NCBI GenBank assembly: GCA_014607495.2
Contig: CP053150.1
Coordinates: 9,444,495-9,508,494 of the forward strand
Direction: 5' to 3'
Length of the DNA: 64,000 nt
From: Carposina sasakii
Taxonomy: Eukaryota; Arthropoda; Insecta; Lepidoptera; Carposinidae
Position 1 is the first letter of the stretch; each line of letters begins with the position of its first letter. Under the pieces are notes generated by a model. That model saw only the letters and a program-made list of their open reading frames with translations. It did no database searches and was not told where the DNA came from. Both the position numbers and the translations under genes were made by a program. Positions 21,410-52,902 of the stretch are shown here, one piece after another.

Positions 21410-21633
21410 TGTTGGGATAATAGATATATCCAGGAAACATTAATAAATATGCAAGAAATTCTAAAAGTATTTATTCACTGCACACTGGTAGTTTCTATAT
21501 CCGACCTGACATGGGTAACCCCGGACACATAAGTAGGCAAAGACAGTAGCGCTCCTAGTGAGCCAATAGTGAAACAGTTTTCTTTCTTAAATTATATAGA
21601 CTAGGACATCGATATAATATTCCATACTTAATA
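21410..21633 (-). repeat. copia 3' LTR (224 bp)
   Basis: In element orientation it begins TATTAAGTATGG and ends TATCCCAACA. A TATA-like CTATATAATTT (about 21590-21602) and an AATAAA signal (21470-21475) are visible. Ends are TA...CA, not the usual TG...CA. Confidence 0.95.
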
Positions 21634-21641
21634 CTCCCACT
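21634..21641 (-). other. Polypurine tract of copia element
   Basis: Reads AGTGGGAG on the minus strand, immediately before the 3' LTR. This is the expected primer for plus-strand DNA synthesis. Confidence 0.85.
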
Positions 21642-21671
21642 AATATTATATCAATCCTACAATAAAAAAAC

Positions 21672-24600
21672 TTAACATAGAATTTTACTTCTTATAAAAC
21701 AAAATTTTTCTGAAGGTAGAGCCTTTGTAAGAAAGTCTGCTAATTGATTAGAACTAGGTACATATTTAATGCTCAAACAGCCTTGCTCTACCTTTTCACG
21801 AATAAACATATATCTAACATCTATGTGTTTAGATCTTTGATGACAAACTGGATTGCATATCAATTTTATTGCAGCCTGATTGTCAATAAACAAATTAATA
21901 CAATTCTGAGTTTCACCTAATTCTGATAGAAATTGTCTTAGCCATAAAAGTTCTTTTGTGGCATCACAAGCTGCCATAAATTCGGCCTCCATTGTGGACA
22001 GTGCAATTGTTTGTTGTTTGCGACTTGTCCAAGTGATTGGACCATTATTCATCAAAAACAAATAGCCTGTAGTAGATTTTCTAGACTCTACATCATTAGC
22101 ATAGTCAGAGTCAGAATAACCTTTTAACTCTACATTTCCCTTATACTCAATTCCTATATTTTTAGTATCTATTAAATATCTTATTATACGTTTAACTGCT
22201 TTAACATGTTCAAAACTGGGATTATTTACATATCTGCATAGCATGTTAACAGCAAAAGAAATATCTGGACGTGAAACTGAGGCTAAAAACAACAGAGATC
22301 CAATTGCCTCTCTATAAGGAAAATTTACAGTAATATCATTATCATTATTCGAGTTTGTCAAACTAATATTACAATCAGCTGGTGTATTACAAGATTTTGC
22401 TTGTGACAAATTAAATTTCTGTATTATTTGCTCAATATAATTTGTTTGAGAAATATGAATGGACTCTTCTGACTTATGTATTTCTAATCCAACAAAACAA
22501 TTCAGATCTAAGACTTTAACATTAAAATTAGTTTTAAGTGCATCTATAACCAACTTCAAGACATCTTTGTTTGATGCAAAAATTAGACCATCATCTACAT
22601 ACAATATCAATAATACTCTCATATTGTTGAAATAGCTCCTAAATACACAATGATCAGATTCTAATTGTATAAACCCATATGACTTTAAAAATTGAGTGAA
22701 TTTCATATTCCAACAGCGTGGAGCCTGTTTGAGTCCATATAGGGATTTGTTGAGTTTGCACACTTTTCCATTTTCAACATCTACACCTTTAGGTGCTTCC
22801 ATAATAATTTCTTCTTCAAGCTCCCCATACAGAAAAGCTGTCTTTATATCAAATTGAACAACTTCATAGTTATACTTAGCAGCCAAACTAAGTAAAATTC
22901 TGATTGAGTCAAATCTAGTAGTTGGTGCAAAAGTTTCATTATAATCAACATTTTTTATTTGTGAAAAACCACGAGCACACAATCTTGCTTTGTATCTTTC
23001 AATTTTTCCTTCTTTATTTTTCTTTATTGTAAAGACCCATTTTGTTGTTATAGGTGTCTTATTAGTTTTATCTATAATTGTCCAGGTTTTATTTTCCTCA
23101 TGAGCTCTTAATTCTTCTTCTATTGCCATCTTCCATTTTCTAGCATCTGGACTCTTTATTGCATCCTCATAAGTGGATGGAACATATTCCACAAGAAATG
23201 CTTGAAAATTTCTATTATTCCTTGGTCTCAAATTAATATTTGATGGTTCAACATCCTCTAAAATTTCTTGAGATGGTTCATATAAATCATCACTCTCATG
23301 TTCACTTGTGTCTTCACTTGTAGCTTCACTTGTAATATCAATTGGCTCGGTCTGAGATATCGATGGAATAGGGGTTTCTTGTATAGATTCAGTGACTTCA
23401 AATTCTGTCATATTCTTTGTGACAGGAATATAATTCTCGTCAAAGAAAACATCTCTTGATATTTTAATTTTATTTGTACTATGGTCATACATTCTATAAT
23501 TGTGATTATCATAGCCCACAAGAATCATCTTGTTACTTTTCTTCTGAAGTTTTGTTCGGCATACATCAGGAACATGGACATATCCACATGAACCAAACAC
23601 TCTTAAATTTTTTAAGTCAGGTTTCTCACCAGTCCAGATTTCATATGGTGTCTTACTTGGAGTTTGACTGGAGGTTGTTCTGTTCTGTAAGTAGACTGCA
23701 CAGTTCACTGCTTCTGCCCATAGTGATAAAGGCAAATTACGACCATAAAGCATGGAACGCGCACTCTCAACTATTGTACGTAACTCTCGTTCTGCCCGAC
23801 CATTCTGCTGAGGTGTATAGGGGGCAGTGCATTCATGTTTTATTCCATTTCGAGTTAAAAACTCTTTAAAATTATTGTTTACATATTCTGTGCCATTATC
23901 TGTATGTAAAGTACGCACATTATGTCCAAACTGATTCTGTATTATAGCATTGTAACACTTAAAGTGATCCAATACTTCACTTTTGTGTTTCATTAAATAT
24001 ACATGTAAATAACTTGAAGCACCATCTTTAAAAAGGACAAAATACTTCATACCTTGTATTGAAGACTCACTCATAGGTCCACACACATCGCTGTAGACCA
24101 GATCTCCAGGGCTCATCACACCCCGGTGTGAAGTATGGAATTGAAGACGAGTTTGCTTTCCATACATGCACGCTTCACACACAAACTGTTCATCTTCACA
24201 ATTTTTACACTGAATAAGTCCACTTTTAATCATATTCTTCACTTCTTTTATATTCAAGTGTCCAAGTCTTTCATGCCATGTTTTTAAACTGTCAGGTGTT
24301 TGCACCACATTACAGCTAGCACTAATAATTGTTTTAAAATTCATATGATACAAATTATTTGGTGTTTGTGTTGCACTCAAAACTACTTTACTGTCCTTGT
24401 AGATTAAAGCAGTAGTATTTCTTTTAATTATTACATAGCCTAAACGCATAATAGCACCTTCAGAAAATAAATTTCTACATAGTTCAGGCACATAGATAAC
24501 TTCTTTTAGAATATTGTTCTCCCACTGTCCATTTATACACTTTCTTATGAGCACTGTACCGACACCACAAACTTTCAGGTTTTGTTGATTTCCCAACTTC

Positions 24601-25487
24601 ACTTGTCTTTTATTTTCATCTGAAAATTCTTCTATATTCAAGAAAAAATCTTTTCTGTAAGTCATGTGTACAGATGCTCCACTGTCTAATAACCACACAT
24701 CATCATTAGTTTCAGAGGTAAAGTATGCATCATCTACATGGAATGCCAACATATTGTTTTGCTCTTGACGTCTTCGACTAGATTTCTTAGCACGGCAGTC
24801 CCTTGCAAAATGACCACGCTTATTACAATTGTAGCACACAAAACGATGACGTGTATTTTCAGAATTATTATTGCTTTCTTTCGGCTTTTCTTGAGCAGCC
24901 GCTAGTGCTACTTCATTTTGCTCTTCTGAAGTTAAACTGGCTTCTTCATCCATCAAGCGAGCAGTGAGATTATGTATAGTTTGTTGAGCAGAGTCAAGCG
25001 ACATCCAGGCTTGGCGCACAGACCGATACTTGGAAGGTAATGTACTGATAATCTTTGTAATGATCGCAGTCTCACTGATTTGCTCACCATTATCTTTAAG
25101 CTGTTGCGCTAAGCTTTCTACTTTAGATATATGTTGCGCTATGCTGTCAGATGGGCTCATCTTGTATTGATAAAATCTTTCATGTACTAACATTTTATTG
25201 AATTCTGACTTCTGTTCATATATTGACTCAAGTTTTTCCATAATTTTCTTGGCACTGTCGCAATTCTCAATAAGTGCTATCTGTCTGTAGTCCATTGCAG
25301 ATGTGATGATGAACATGGCCATGCCGTCATTTTTGAGCCATGCGGTTGCTGTGTTACCATCAGTTGGTTTCGATACAGACAGATCGATTCCTTTCGCCCT
25401 TAATGCACACATGATTTGGAACTTCCATTGGCGGAAATTATTGCCATCGAACCTCTCCACATTCATTTTAAGGCCACCAACATCCAT
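21672..25487 (-). CDS. copia gag-pol polyprotein, intact (1271 aa)
   Basis: Encodes all proteins for copia retrotransposition in one frame. Gag region about 1-235, with a CCHC zinc knuckle CYNCNKRGHFARDC at 218-231. Aspartic protease with DSG at 268-270. Integrase with H405, H410, C437, C440 as the zinc site and D467, D530, E566 as catalytic residues (in SDVCGP, HTDNGTE, QNGRAERE). Reverse transcriptase about 780-1030 with YVDD at 963-966. RNase H with D1126 or D1128, E1167 and D1202. The start is the first ATG, about 110 nt inside the 5' LTR. Length is slightly below the roughly 1400 residues of Drosophila copia. No stop or frameshift is present. A single frame means Gag must be made in excess by splicing or processing; I see no obvious signal deciding which. 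Confidence 0.97.
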   Translation of the reverse strand: MDVGGLKMNVERFDGNNFRQWKFQIMCALRAKGIDLSVSKPTDGNTATAWLKNDGMAMFIITSAMDYRQIALIENCDSAKKIMEKLESIYEQKSEFNKMLVHERFYQYKMSPSDSIAQHISKVESLAQQLKDNGEQISETAIITKIISTLPSKYRSVRQAWMSLDSAQQTIHNLTARLMDEEASLTSEEQNEVALAAAQEKPKESNNNSENTRHRFVCYNCNKRGHFARDCRAKKSSRRRQEQNNMLAFHVDDAYFTSETNDDVWLLDSGASVHMTYRKDFFLNIEEFSDENKRQVKLGNQQNLKVCGVGTVLIRKCINGQWENNILKEVIYVPELCRNLFSEGAIMRLGYVIIKRNTTALIYKDSKVVLSATQTPNNLYHMNFKTIISASCNVVQTPDSLKTWHERLGHLNIKEVKNMIKSGLIQCKNCEDEQFVCEACMYGKQTRLQFHTSHRGVMSPGDLVYSDVCGPMSESSIQGMKYFVLFKDGASSYLHVYLMKHKSEVLDHFKCYNAIIQNQFGHNVRTLHTDNGTEYVNNNFKEFLTRNGIKHECTAPYTPQQNGRAERELRTIVESARSMLYGRNLPLSLWAEAVNCAVYLQNRTTSSQTPSKTPYEIWTGEKPDLKNLRVFGSCGYVHVPDVCRTKLQKKSNKMILVGYDNHNYRMYDHSTNKIKISRDVFFDENYIPVTKNMTEFEVTESIQETPIPSISQTEPIDITSEATSEDTSEHESDDLYEPSQEILEDVEPSNINLRPRNNRNFQAFLVEYVPSTYEDAIKSPDARKWKMAIEEELRAHEENKTWTIIDKTNKTPITTKWVFTIKKNKEGKIERYKARLCARGFSQIKNVDYNETFAPTTRFDSIRILLSLAAKYNYEVVQFDIKTAFLYGELEEEIIMEAPKGVDVENGKVCKLNKSLYGLKQAPRCWNMKFTQFLKSYGFIQLESDHCVFRSYFNNMRVLLILYVDDGLIFASNKDVLKLVIDALKTNFNVKVLDLNCFVGLEIHKSEESIHISQTNYIEQIIQKFNLSQAKSCNTPADCNISLTNSNNDNDITVNFPYREAIGSLLFLASVSRPDISFAVNMLCRYVNNPSFEHVKAVKRIIRYLIDTKNIGIEYKGNVELKGYSDSDYANDVESRKSTTGYLFLMNNGPITWTSRKQQTIALSTMEAEFMAACDATKELLWLRQFLSELGETQNCINLFIDNQAAIKLICNPVCHQRSKHIDVRYMFIREKVEQGCLSIKYVPSSNQLADFLTKALPSEKFCFIRSKILC

Positions 25488-25584
25488 TTTACCGGCGTCG
25501 AACTTTGAGGTTATTCACTTTGAGGTTATGTAAAAATGTAATTACTTGCACCGAGTGTTTGCTCTTTACAACTTTATTAATGAC

Positions 25585-25598
25585 CTGGGCCCATAACC
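25585..25598 (-). other. copia primer binding site (half initiator tRNA-Met)
   Basis: The minus strand reads GGTTATGGGCCCAG directly after the 5' LTR. It is complementary to the anticodon stem-loop region of insect initiator tRNA-Met (CUGGGCCCAUAACC), the internal half-tRNA priming known for Drosophila copia, not the tRNA 3' end. Confidence 0.9.
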
Positions 25599-25822
25599 TG
25601 TTGGGATAATAGATATATCCAGGAAACATTAATAAATATGCAAGAAATTCTAAAAGTATTTATTCACTGCACACTGGTAGTTTCTATATCCGACCTGACA
25701 TGGGTAACCCCGGACACATAAGTAGGCAAAGACAGTAGCGCTCCTAGTGAGCCAATAGTGAAACAGTTTTCTTTCTTAAATTATATAGACTAGGACATCG
25801 ATATAATATTCCATACTTAATA
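25599..25822 (-). repeat. copia 5' LTR (224 bp)
   Basis: Same 224 bases as the 3' LTR by eye. Contains the TATA-like box and AATAAA in element orientation, so transcription should start here and run toward lower coordinates. Confidence 0.95.
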
Positions 25823-28872: not shown

Positions 28873-28876
28873 ATTT

Positions 28877-28905
28877 CGTCGCCGTAGAGCGAAAAGTCAC
28901 TAAGT
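28877..28905 (+). repeat. Left terminal inverted repeat
   Basis: Contains the outer CGTCGCCGTAGA and the inner motif GCGAAAAGTCACTAAGT (28889-28905), which is the likely transposase-binding site because it is repeated internally. Confidence 0.88.
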
Positions 28906-29092
28906 AGATTAAAACGTGTTTTGAGTAATAGAGTTTTAAAGTTTTATAAAACGAAAAAAAATATAACATAGTTTTGCCATGAGGTAATTTAAATTTAATG
29001 GTTTTGTATTTTAGAAAATAGATAAGAGTATAAGGTGATATTAGTATTTTTAATGAATTACGTATAATTACTGAAATAATGGCAAAAAACTA

Positions 29093-29109
29093 ACTTAGTT
29101 ATTTTTCGC
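29093..29109 (-). repeat. Internal copy of the end motif (left side)
   Basis: On the minus strand reads GCGAAAAATAACTAAGT, close to the terminal motif, in inverted orientation relative to the left end and about 190 bp inside it. Confidence 0.7.
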
Positions 29110-29355
29110 CCACAAATTCTGTACTATAATATATGATTAAAGAGGTTTAGTGACATTTCTCTTGTGTCTAGGACCATTGTTAAAAAAATAATTCCATTTA
29201 GGTAGAATATTACTTATATTAGCAAGTTCAATAGATCTTTTAATGAAATTTGACTCTTTTATATACACTGTCTTTTGTTTATTATTTATCTATTTTTAAA
29301 AACAAGGCAAAGAAAAGAAGAAAACAAATTAATGCGTTATTATACTTATTATTAG

Positions 29356-29361
29356 TTTATT
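29356..29361 (-). terminator. Polyadenylation signal AATAAA
   Basis: Lies 36 nt after the stop codon of the transposase gene on the coding strand, inside the transposon. Confidence 0.7.
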
Positions 29362-29396
29362 AAAAGACACAAAGAAATTTAGCATTCATAACTAAA

Positions 29397-32300
29397 TTAA
29401 TCCGACTCTTCACTTTCATCGTTGATATCGGGTTCCATTGCCCTATCTTGAACGTCATTGCTGGTCGGTAGAGACTCAGACCACGAGTGTAGTTCTTGGG
29501 GTATGATGTCCTTGCGACAGAGACCAATAAGATCCTTTTTCTTAGCCACTGAAATTGGAAGAGGAGCAGAATAAGCCATTGGAATAGCATACGCTTTTAA
29601 TTGAGCTACTAATTCGATTCTTCTGGTTTCCGAAACACTCTCTCCTATTCCATGCTCTTCCAAAATTCTTTTTCTTTTTCTAGTTCGAGGAACCGTTTTT
29701 TCTTCTTTTTCAAATATGTCAAACTCGGAGTACGGGCCATCGTGAGTGTAACGAAACTTAACTATGCCTGGATATTGCTTTTCAAACCTAAGACATTTGA
29801 TTTTCAGCCACATAATTTTCTTTCCGTTTTTATCTCTACTTGTATTACTGATAAATTTTTCATTCAGAGCCTTGACATCAAGCATTTCATTATAATTAAG
29901 TTCCTTTACCTCATAAGGCGATGCCGTTTCCCGGTGTCTCTTTGAACGTGCACGACGCATGACTGACTTCCAGTCTATCATAGAGTAAATTGGCGTATGC
30001 CTTTGCTCTTTTTCAATTGCGCTGTGCATGGAATCGACCTCCATGTGCGTGTGTCCACTTTCCAAGTATTTCTGCTCAAAAACATCCAAATGTAAATCAG
30101 GTCTTTGAATAAGATGAACCAAAAAGGCAGTTATAAATTGGTTTCGATTTTGCCCTGCGCAAGTGTCACTATAAATACAAATTTCTTTTATAGTAGGTGG
30201 CACCTGACTGATCCACCAGTTTAAAGCACTGGCGATTTCAACGCTTCCTCTTTTACCATTAATTTCGTTCCATGTAATACAATAGGCTTCATTAGGAGGT
30301 TTTGCTGTATGAATCGTGTAGTTCTGGACATTTAGTTTCCTTGTGTAGTATAGAATGCCGACACCACAAACAGGTATGTGCAACGTAGACTGCATGTCAG
30401 CGGTGAGCACAAGATAAGTGTCGTCTGCAATAGATCGTTCCTTATCACGTTCTTTGGCAGTTTGTGCTGCAATTTTTCTCTCAATATGAGCATCATATTC
30501 TTCTTTAAGATTATCAGGTCGACCTGCACTATCGAACCGAGTACATGCCATGCAGAGATCCTTTTTTGGAGTGAAAAATGACAAGTTAAATTCAGATCCA
30601 AATATTCTTTTATAAACATATAATGAACACGGGGTATCATTAGTCGATGCTAATTTTTCTTTGTACATCTCATACATTTTGGCAATGCTGAGTTTGCTTT
30701 CCAAGTATTGCCTCCGGGAAGTTTTTCTACAATAATGAGATTCAAGTCGAGGAAAGGAATTAATGTGGTCAATAATTTTTTGCTCAGAATCGCGATCAGT
30801 TTTGTTAATAGGAACATGGGAACCACGCCCGTCTTTACCCTCAAAAATGCCGTACTCGTTCATTTGTTTGATGGCTTCATTGACCGGTCCATTTGAAATA
30901 CATAATGTTTTGAGGAAAAACTGCTTGCACACTCTCATTTTAGAACCATTTTTATAAAAATAGTATTCATATGAAGCACTTCGATGTTTATCTTTTGAAA
31001 TAAGGACTTTTAATGTTTTTACAGGTTTGGCAATTATTAATTGCAATAAAAACTGTTTTTGTGCCACATAATCTGTAATCTTCCAGTACCGTTGACAAAG
31101 TGAAACTCTATCATCTTCAGAAAAATTATTCAAACAAAGAAATCGGCATTTTGTATCACATTTTACGGGCTTAGGCATCTTAGCGGGCATTACTTTCCCT
31201 TTTTTATTTTCGTAAGGCATACAATTGTGTCTATTCGCCTTTGCTTGATTCTTTTTCCATTTACTTGGGCAGCTTTTTTTCCATCTTGTAGCTTTTTTTT
31301 CATTGTTATTAGTGTGAGCAGTGGTAGCTGATGGTAAGTTTAGATCTTCAATAGATTCTTGTACATTTGTTTCTGATTTTTCCTCTTCGACAGAGTTAAA
31401 AACGGTACCAATAGTAGCCGATGCGGAGGTTAGTGGCTCATCGGATTCCGGTATTTGTTTCTTAAATTTTTCATTTTCTTCTCCGTTGTTAGTTAATATT
31501 GTTATTTCCTGCTGTTTATTAGATTCTTCGGTTTCATTGGTAAAGGTATTAATAGATGTATTCTGATTTATATTGGAAGGTCCAGGATGATTTCCACCTG
31601 TAGCATTACTGTTTCTATTCATACTTTTTAAATAAGAATTCATCAAATCTTCGCTATCACTGCTGTCACTTAAATATTTTCTAATTACTCTTCGTTTATT
31701 CTTCATAATATATTCATAGCGTTCCTCTTCACTATCTGGATACCAAGAAACGCTTGAGTCTGAGAAAACACGAACAGGAGAACTACTCAGATTATCAACA
31801 CCGCTTATAAGAGACCAAGGACTCTTAGGTAAATCGTCGTTTTCTTGAACTAAGGTTTCCTTGAAAGCGATAGAGCTTGAACCGAGCTCTTTCGTTGGTG
31901 TTTTTGGAAGAGGATAAGGACTCTTGGTAGCAGCAACATCTTGTTGTAGTGAAATCAAGTCTTCAAGGTTAATGAGATCATCATCTGCGTCGTTTACAAC
32001 TAAAGGAGCGGACTGCGGCTGCTGAATAGTGGGCAATTTATTTGGACTGAATACAGCAGAAGGTGGAGCAGACTCATAGCAATCTCTTTTTTGAAAAAGC
32101 TCAACCTCGTCGAAGTTCTTTGACATTTCATCATTAAGAAGTCCTCCCTGAAATTAATGAATATAAATAGAACAAGGCAGAAAGCAATAAAATAAGGTGT
32201 ATTCGTATTTAGTTGCAAGTCCCGATACAAAGCCAAAACAATTTAAAATCAATGGTTATACTCTTTAGTTAGTATTACATAAGTAATGCATAAGCGTATG

Positions 32301-33252
32301 CAAGGGTCATTAGGTCAATATTTTTGGATGTTTGTCCAGTACTATAAGTGAAGATGGTTAGGTAATGATGAGGTGCAAGCCAGGGACGTCATGAAGGTAA
32401 GTTTGCTTATTAGCAAAATAAAGAAACTGCGTTCGAAAGTAATTTACGATACATTTTACACTTCCTAGCGTTAGGTACTGACTGTACCTACCTTGATTAG
32501 TCATGTTATTTTAAAATCTTTTGTTTTTACGGCCAGTTGCAGAAAGCGTCAGTAAAGTTAATTCCCCATCAAAGCTAATGTTGCACTCTTTTTGTCAATT
32601 TGTCAGAAAAAGACAGGAAGTGCTTTAATTTAATGAGGCTTTGTACAACTGGGCGTTAATGTGCCTGATATAATAACCTCATTTACATATGGAAAAAAAA
32701 CCCGACTGCGTAAAAATTTTGGGTACCTACCCAGTGTCACTCTATCGACAAAGATGAATCGAATGATACCTCTCAAGCGCAAATCCGATAAGCCGTTTAG
32801 GCTCTAGAGCATGCCAAAGAAATATACATACATACATACTCTCGAAAAACATAACCTTCTTGTGCAGTCGGGTAAAAAGAGAACACCCTTTACACTTCAA
32901 TATCGAAGAAAAGCAAGTACACACACATACACTTCAAGCTAGCAAGCTACTTTTTATTTCGGTTCCATAGCCACAATCAAAATAAAATTGCATAAAGTGT
33001 CAAGTCATTATTATGTACCACACCATACCACAACCAAAATAATTACACTTCATAAATCCTGTTTGTCGCATATTGGTCATCTGAACAAGTAGGTACCTAG
33101 AAAATACATGAAAACTGCTTTTATCGAATATTGTACCATAACTTTAAATTAATAATAATCAGTAAAGTCTAATAATAAAAACTTGAATCACTTACCTGTA
33201 CAGCAACATCTTCTTTATTCAATAAATTTAAGATTAGCTTCGCACGACTCAT
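29397..33252 (-). CDS. Putative RNase-H-fold transposase (two exons, 935 aa)
   Basis: Exon 1 is 33196-33252 (ATG, 19 codons, MSRAKLILNLLNKED...). Exon 2 is 29397-32147. They join in phase 0. Using numbering from the internal Met at 32126 (909 residues): residues 1-270 are acidic, Ser-rich and probably disordered; 277-300 basic; 323-345 Cys-rich (CDTKCRFLC, then C344); 525-528 CxxC. The probable catalytic core has D577 (LTADMQ), D654 (YSDTCAGQN) and a histidine-rich GHTHMEVDSMHSAIE at 691-705, where E696, D698 or E705 could be the third acidic residue. A basic segment follows (RRARSKR, and KRKR further on). I recall such proteins as abundant unnamed insect and cnidarian proteins (possibly Pfam DUF7869); I cannot verify this. 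Position as sole gene between TIRs argues for a transposase. No stops or frameshifts. Confidence 0.85.
32148..33195 (-). other. Intron of the transposase gene (1048 bp)
   Basis: Donor CAG-GTAAGTG (33195 inward) and acceptor ttaatttcag (ends 32148) on the minus strand. Joining the flanking exons keeps the frame and adds 26 residues before the internal Met. A small TIR repeat is inserted at 32700-32873. Confidence 0.8.
32700..32873. mobile_element. Nested short TIR repeat inside the transposon intron
   Basis: Ends acccgactgc and gcagtcgggt are perfect 10-bp inverted repeats, with gtacctacccagtgtcac and atgccaaagaaatatacata inside. I recognise this end pair as a frequent lepidopteran repeat. 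About 174 bp; no coding capacity; A-rich on both sides. Confidence 0.65.
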
Positions 33253-33330
33253 TGCTTATTCAAGTTTATAAAATCACGTATAAAAATGCAACGAGGAGCG
33301 CGTGTGCGCATCGGACGGCCAGAAAAGCAA

Positions 33331-33443
33331 GATAAAAGTCACCAAACGCTAATGCGTCGTCCAGAACGCGTGCCCCTCCAACGGCCAACGAACTCTGATA
33401 GAAGAGCAAAACTCACCAAGTCGCGCGCGAAATTCACCTAAGT
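33331..33443. repeat. Cluster of internal end-motif copies (right side, inner)
   Basis: Copies at 33331-33346 (gataaaagtcaccaaa), 33406-33421 (gcaaaactcaccaagt) and 33427-33443 (gcgaaattcacctaagt), all in plus orientation. The cluster overlaps the region just upstream of exon 1, so the protein might also bind its own promoter. Confidence 0.65.
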
Positions 33444-33622
33444 ATCGTAGCTCGAACAAATATTGATTGAAATATTCACCAAAAAGCTTCAGAGGATATT
33501 TGAAATAAATTTCGGTATCTTTAGCATTAGGATAGAACTGATCAAGTAAGTTTGATTATGTTTCGCGTTAAAATTATGTTTATGTAATAATTATAAATAT
33601 CGGTCGAGTTGTCACTAAATTG

Positions 33623-33639
33623 ACTTGGTTATTTTTTGC
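33623..33639 (-). repeat. Internal copy of the end motif (right side, outer)
   Basis: Minus strand reads GCAAAAAATAACCAAGT. It has the same orientation as the right terminal motif. Confidence 0.65.
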
Positions 33640-33977
33640 CTTCCATTTTTTATCGTACCAGTCATTCTAAAACTAATTAGGTTATTTTAGTTAATTTTAC
33701 CTTGAATTGAATCCCAGTTATGATTTATTTTGTAAAGAGGAAATTTAATCAAACCGACTTAAGTACAGAAATGCAACTCTTAACGAATAATGAAAAAGTA
33801 TTCAAGTATTTTATTTAATTTTGGACTTATGTTTTGAAAACTAAATGAAGAATTAATGGTTTTTTGCTAAATCTAAAATCAAAACTATGACACGAATAGA
33901 TATGGGTGTAAGGTTGATATTCGTAGAAAAAAATTGAGATTTTGATGACATAATCTAACTCAATTTTGGCCAAAACG

Positions 33978-34006
33978 ACTTGGTGATTTTTCGCTCTACG
34001 GCGACG
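33978..34006 (-). repeat. Right terminal inverted repeat
   Basis: The minus strand begins CGTCGCCGTAGAGCGAAAA and continues ATCACCAAGT, matching the left end except for two bases. Confidence 0.88.
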
Positions 34007-34172
34007 ATTTATCATGATAATAAGTTGAAAGGTGTCTAAGTGCGAAAATTGCGGCTAATAACGGGACTTTTTAAATTTGGTCATAAGTATCTAACGTAAA
34101 AATCGACAAATAACCAATGTCACCAATTTTTCCCCTTATACATACATACGTATTATGATGTGTAAGCAATAT

Positions 34173-45950: not shown

Positions 45951-46033
<83 letters not shown>
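45950..46033. repeat. (TA)n microsatellite, about 41 units
   Basis: Uninterrupted TA run of about 83 bases. Its exact length is likely to vary between individuals and assemblies. Confidence 0.97.
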
Positions 46034-51910: not shown

Positions 51911-52182
51911 CGTTCGATTCCCACCCGGTTGAGGAATTTTTTCCATTTCTTTATTAATAATTTTATAATATATAATATCTTGACTAAGATAAATTTATAA
52001 AAACACTTCTCCAGTAATATAATCCGTTAGGATATGGTTGATCGTTTCATCTTTAAACATTGTGCTGAGGGATTCAGCTTTGTTTGCCGAGATTTGGCTA
52101 GTGTATAGCTATCGGGATGAAAAATAACGTTGCCAATATGTAATTTAGAAAAGAGATGGTAAAATTCGTCATCCGAGTAATT

Positions 52183-52255
52183 GACCCGGTGGCTCAGTGG
52201 TTAGAGCACTGACACGCGGAATGCAGAGGTCGTGGGTTCGATTCCCACCCGGGTG
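52183..52255 (+). mobile_element. tRNA-like SINE head, copy 1
   Basis: Folds as acceptor gacccgg/ccgggtg (6 of 7 pairs), D-arm gctc/gagc, T-arm gtggg-ttcgatt-cccac. A-box and B-box are intact. The anticodon arm is damaged: ctgac against tgcag pairs at only three positions with an 8-nt loop, so no anticodon can be read. Pseudo-tRNA, not a translation tRNA. Confidence 0.8.
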
Positions 52256-52506
52256 AGGAATTTTTTCCATTTCTTTATTAATAATTGTATAATAAATAAT
52301 ACCTGGACTAAGATAAATTTATAAAAACACTTCTCCATTAATATAATCCGTTAGGATATGGTTGATCGTTTCATCTTTAAACATTGTGCTGAGGGAATCA
52401 GCTTTGTTTGCCGAGATTTGGCTAGTGTATAGCTATCGGGATGAAAAATAACGTTGCCAATATGTAATTTAGAAAAGAGATGGTAAAATTCGTCATCCGA
52501 GTAATT

Positions 52507-52579
52507 GACCCGGTGGCTCAGTGGTTAGAGCACTGACACGCGGAATGCAGAGGTCGTGGGTTCGATTCCCACCCGGGTG
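52507..52579 (+). mobile_element. tRNA-like SINE head, copy 2
   Basis: Same 73 bases as copy 1, including the damaged anticodon arm, so the defect predates the duplication. Confidence 0.8.
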
Positions 52580-52902
52580 AGGAATTTATTGCATTTCTTT
52601 ATTAATAATTTTATAATTTTACTATAAAATAATAGATTAACTCAATATTTTAATTTAGTTTCAAGTCGCATTAGTAACACAAACAAAATCAAAGTGTCCA
52701 TATGCAAGTTGTTCAAAACCAAAATGTTTTTTTTTGCAGTGTTTGTGTTCTATAATAATTGATTAGGTACTCCCAACTACATACTTTATTCATATAACCT
52801 CTACTGCCTACCTAAAAGTGTTGCAAACTATGTGCCATGAATAGAACCATAATAATGCCGCTAATTTTAATAGACGTTCGCCTAAAATATATTTTCATCT
52901 CC

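Follow-up and report, generated by a model that had tools for sequence, protein, structure and literature searches.

A probably young DNA transposon of Carposina sasakii encoding a DUF7869 protein, with probable affiliation to the Sola superfamily

A stretch of 64,000 nucleotides from Carposina sasakii (contig CP053150.1 of assembly GCA_014607495.2, positions 9,444,495 to 9,508,494), referred to here as the window, contains a DNA transposon of 5130 bp at positions 28877–34006. Comparison of its copies indicated that it is a complete, probably young and potentially autonomous element, belonging to a family that moved recently and may still be active. Its gene was predicted to encode a transposase with the domain DUF7869 and an RNase H core. 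The target site, the dimensions and the probable catalytic acids point to the Sola superfamily, to which the element was assigned with good confidence. The Sola2 type was the nearest published one, and the element most likely represents a new family within a known superfamily.

The left end of the element starts at 28877 with CGTCGCCGTAGAGCGAAAA, and the inverse of this sequence ends at 34006. The terminal inverted repeats of 29 bp (28877–28905 on the plus strand, 33978–34006 on the minus strand) are 93% identical, with the first 19 bases identical and two mismatches in the next ten. The word ATTT flanks the element as a target site duplication at 28873–28876 and 34007–34010. A preliminary description of the window had given these borders, repeats and flanking words exactly to the base. 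A 19-base motif (GCGAAAAATCACCAAGT) lies towards the inner side of each inverted repeat, and three further sites with it are found just inside the ends. The GCGAAAAATCACCAAGTCG-like sequence of the left end (28889–28907, plus strand) extends two bases beyond the repeat, and its counterpart in the right end occupies 33976–33994 on the minus strand. One internal site lies about 200 bp inward of the left end (29091–29109, minus strand), and two are near the right end (33405–33423, plus strand, and 33621–33639, minus strand). At up to four mismatches, three sites lie between the ends, compared with an average of 0.01 over 200 dinucleotide shuffles; the remaining 58.9 kb of the window contained none. 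The repeated motif is probably a binding site of the transposase.

Copies were searched with the first 224 bases in the assembly of 399 Mb and 31 contigs, in which the window lies on contig 3. At least 38 places matched, 11 of them, including the window, over the full length at 99–100%, three at 86–90% over 116–219 bases and 24 over at most 63 bases. A lack of further copies with the same ends had been named beforehand as a possible refutation; ten such copies were present. Seven of these ten were contiguous end to end with 99.2–99.8% identity. L013 and L018 carried inserts of approximately 0.9 and 3.1 kb, respectively, with both ends kept. In L012, which is interrupted, no right end was located within the DNA examined. 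The eight contiguous copies, window included, differed by 6–31 substitutions per pair, and their variable sites (65 singleton, 4 shared) formed a star-like pattern. Relative to the window copy, the other seven showed 67 coding differences, comprising 16 synonymous and 48 nonsynonymous changes and three stops, as would be expected if the copies were not individually under selection. Compared with the window copy, L009–L011 and L014–L017 carried 67 substitutions in the 2751 bases of exon 2, a higher density than that of the 25 substitutions in the other 2379 bases of the element. Short derivatives included a 444-bp form and six miniature inverted-repeat transposable elements (MITEs) of 131–138 bp. 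L026 and L027, about 149 kb apart on contig C3, are two occurrences of a 1-kb derivative that contains foreign DNA in its interior. Their flanks are 94–98% alike on both sides, which suggests a segmental duplication that followed the insertion.

Both ends were located for 20 insertions. A perfect 4-bp duplication was present in 17 of them, with the words ATAT (14), AAAT (2) and ATTT (1), and a 5-bp test revealed longer duplications in 0 of 20. This set omits L027, the duplicate of L026, as well as L012, L019, L020, L022, L023, L034 and L035, for which a complete second end was not located. L030, with three mismatches in its right tip, was counted after a shift of its boundaries to 599–884. For copy L015, the two 150-base flanks, joined with a single ATAT, matched 300 of 300 bases in nine other places and nearly so in two more; 11 partner places matched the first 243–249 bases across the junction at 96–100%. 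Three perfect empty sites equalled, letter by letter, both flanks minus the element and minus one ATAT, which fixes the boundaries of this copy and the 4-bp size of its duplication. The insertion was very recent, since over these 300 bases the repeat that it interrupts has not diverged from copies lacking the element. The host repeat around L015 (C8:7040607–7046026) occurs in 11 pairs of places with a spacing of about 6–13 kb, in the manner of long terminal repeats. L014 also interrupts a dispersed repeat, of which other copies at L028, L022 and L034 (70–73%) run through without the element; the alignment at this junction is gapped and hence not base-exact. For the window copy, a comparison of the joined flanks with the window gave no match across the junction. 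The empty sites with a single ATTT that had been suggested as a check were obtained in altered form, as exact sites with ATAT for L015 and not for the window copy, for which the search covered the window and not the whole genome. The ends and the 4-bp target size could be defined from the genome copies and these sites, as had been anticipated, and the view of a complete, young element was borne out.

The gene lies on the minus strand. A single open frame, 918 codons long when counted between stops, covers 29397–32153, in line with the unbroken gene described before, and it contains the motifs quoted at that time (LTADMQ, YSDTCAGQN and others). A 57-nt exon 1 (MSRAKLILNLLNKEDVAVQ, 33196–33252) with a GT donor next to it was predicted to be joined across a GT-AG intron of 1048 bp (32148–33195) to exon 2 (29397–32147, stop codon included), giving a protein of 935 amino acids; this splice was inferred from the sequence. 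The Pfam scan, made with the open frame without exon 1 and up to E 1, assigned residues 658–784 to DUF7869 (PF25273) with E 1.3e-10 and 41.6 bits against a gathering cut-off of 26. The other families, DUF7924 and Prefoldin_2, were both under their cut-offs. The nearest homolog was from Spodoptera exigua, with 72% over the searched part. Among the matches listed, homologs were named uncharacterized, hypothetical, unnamed or DUF7869, save for one unlikely automatic name, as the preliminary description had supposed for such proteins, and no name mentioned Sola or a transposase. DUF7869 proteins of insects, sea urchins and molluscs, compared here as protein records, are homologous across the core. 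Some of these relatives bear an OTU protease domain, unlike the window protein. This domain (PF02338) occurred together with DUF7869 in homologs P0100, P0102, P0108 and P0115, and without a listed DUF7869 in P0111 and P0125. A sequence search of the PDB with the protein gave no match. A third protein search, seeded by 16 distant relatives, returned three proteins, and its words were perhaps placed in poorly conserved parts. In viral contigs, the scan for exact ends found none and the profile scan gave four pattern matches with 0 confirmed; in prokaryote contigs, the profile scan gave 33 pattern matches with 0 confirmed.

AlphaFold modelled an RNase H core with confidence, and the model thus agrees with the RNase-H-like transposase proposed earlier. 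The first model was based on an alignment of 79 of 120 listed homologs and the second on 95 of 167, hand-chosen. Conservation was counted over all 168 homologs and the window protein (169 rows, gaps set aside). The first catalytic aspartate, D586 of LTADMQ (30396–30398, minus strand), lies at the end of the first core strand, and the second, D663 of YSDTC (30165–30167, minus strand), just after the fourth strand; each was conserved in 167 of 168 rows. The third acid is probably D707 of GHTHMEVDSMHS (30033–30035, minus strand), with E705 (30039–30041, minus strand) as the alternative. In the model, both lie where the helix that follows the fifth strand begins, and they are equally conserved (each in 166 of 168 rows). 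A putative zinc site precedes the catalytic core, formed by H463, H473, C534 and C537 of the open frame (30543–30767, minus strand), which were conserved in 163 of 163, 164 of 166, 166 of 167 and 167 of 167 rows, respectively. The acids and these HHCC residues were seen in every row of both model alignments. Altogether, the model supports an RNase H nuclease with three conserved acids. The top matches listed by VIA-align were DDE transposases and integrases, including Mariner Mos1, SETMAR and retroviral integrases, which have the RNase H core in common with the window protein at about 6–12% identity. Foldseek with the long model gave IstA as best match (E 1.7e-3), which was not accepted as a family assignment. 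A fold search of BFVD was weak and returned mostly RNase H-like and other viral proteins, among them two named IS4-type transposases.

The assignment to Sola is based on published descriptions of that superfamily. According to PMC10741241, Sola elements have a DDD transposase, make 4-bp duplications, measure mostly 2–9 kb and carry inverted repeats of 11–1124 bp. PMC3627910 describes, for Sola2 of the social amoebae Dictyostelium fasciculatum and Polysphondylium pallidum, AWWT duplications (ATAT, AAAT, ATTT), inverted repeats of 12–21 bp and an 888-aa transposase. The window element, with 5130 bp and 29-bp inverted repeats, falls within the Sola dimensions, its duplication of 4 bp was seen in the 17 perfect cases and the L015 empty sites, and its duplication words are the same three. 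For the DDD transposase, the fold was modelled and the first two aspartates are clear, whereas the third acid may be D707 or E705. By description, the amoeba elements are also alike in their short inverted repeats and one large transposase (888 aa vs 935 aa predicted here); they differ in bearing Fanzor1 genes, in host lineage and in the length of the inverted repeats. Sola sequences of the noctuid moths Trichoplusia ni and Spodoptera exigua, comparable by class only, were reported joined to or inserted in baculovirus DNA (PMC4735498; see also PMC8634313), so that there is precedent for mobile Sola elements in moths. The undescribed superfamily that had been suggested for the element is probably an annotation gap, since Sola2-type duplications and the DDD type are already published (PMC3627910 and PMC10741241).

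Several observations weigh against this interpretation. The link to Sola rests on the duplication type, the DDD-like acids and the dimensions, and not on a comparison of proteins. The third acid may be E705, making the triad DDE rather than DDD. Three of the 20 duplications were off by one base, and the empty-site proof pertains to L015 and not to the window copy. The full exon-2 frame was intact in only two of the eight contiguous copies, the window copy and L010. Against the PDB, Foldseek found nothing at E 0.001 or better with the long model and one such match with the core, Mos1, which was weak (E 8.5e-4, TM 0.30). The Foldseek lists mixed chains of RNase H, terminase, UvrC, Argonaute and MutS with those of transposases.

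An unlikely alternative is that DUF7869 elements form a superfamily of their own that merely resembles Sola2, consisting of cut-and-paste elements of animals with the layout of retroviral integrases, namely an HHCC zinc site followed by the RNase H core. The near-invariant HHCC residues are consistent with it, as are the homolog names given above and the fact that no sequence link to a named Sola protein was obtained. The word DUF7869 was also absent from the papers searched, a result limited to that set. The identity of the duplication set with that published for Sola2 (PMC3627910) and the definition of Sola as a DDD superfamily with 4-bp duplications (PMC10741241) speak against separation. 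If it were true, this family would define the ends, the 4-bp AWWT target and the subterminal binding sites of the new superfamily, some relatives being fused to the OTU protease. An integrase-type transposon such as Ginger or an IS481/IS3-like element has very little probability. HHCC residues do precede the core and retroviral integrases are among the best fold matches, but the Pfam scan of the open frame up to E 1 revealed no integrase core family, and this type was rejected. Because of the exact L015 empty sites, it is extremely unlikely that this is a host gene or a domesticated transposase whose inverted repeats are relics or due to chance. The long intact frame might be cited in favour of that reading; the dispersed near-identical copies with duplications and the coding differences, distributed as in unconstrained copies, also oppose it.

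Other families were rejected by their target sites or domains. PiggyBac and Kolobok were dismissed with TTAA at 0 of 20 sites. Pfam contains a KDZ model, and no match to KDZ (Zisupton and kin) was obtained in the scan up to E 1. Mariner/Tc1 was rejected because the duplication is 4 bp here and not the 2-bp TA that mariner makes (PMC10741241). Chance inverted repeats were excluded by the near-identical copies elsewhere, the 4-bp duplications and the exact empty sites of one copy.

The window also holds a young long terminal repeat element at 21410–25822 (minus strand), with an open frame of 1280 amino acids flanked by a pair of 224-bp repeats of 100% identity. From its motifs, we take it to be of Copia type. 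Two tRNA-Pro (CGG) genes are located at 51912–52617 in a 324-bp unit present in 2.2 repeats at 97%, and a perfect TA dinucleotide run of 41.5 copies lies at 45951–46033.

The following mechanism is proposed for the element. The 935-aa DUF7869 transposase would bind the 19-base motif in the inverted repeats and at the three subterminal copies and pair both ends. Its RNase H active site, presumably DDD, would cut at the outer CGTCG tips, leading to cut-and-paste excision. Joining of the ends to an AWWT target, in most cases ATAT, would follow through cuts staggered by 4 bases, and repair of the resulting gaps would give the 4-bp duplications. The MITEs may be mobilised by intact copies.

For a DUF7869 element, it is new that ends, target and empty sites are defined and an active site is modelled; the integrase-like HHCC layout and the subterminal repeats of the motif are new as well. 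The family, in which two of eight contiguous copies retain the long frame, can be tested. If the link to Sola is true, the structural model may also apply to that superfamily, and with it the integrase-like arrangement of the HHCC residues. DUF7869-type proteins occur in several animal groups, where they are listed as uncharacterized or DUF7869 and could be mistaken for host genes. Now that the domain is linked to defined ends, a target, empty sites and a model of the active site, they become recognisable as transposases.
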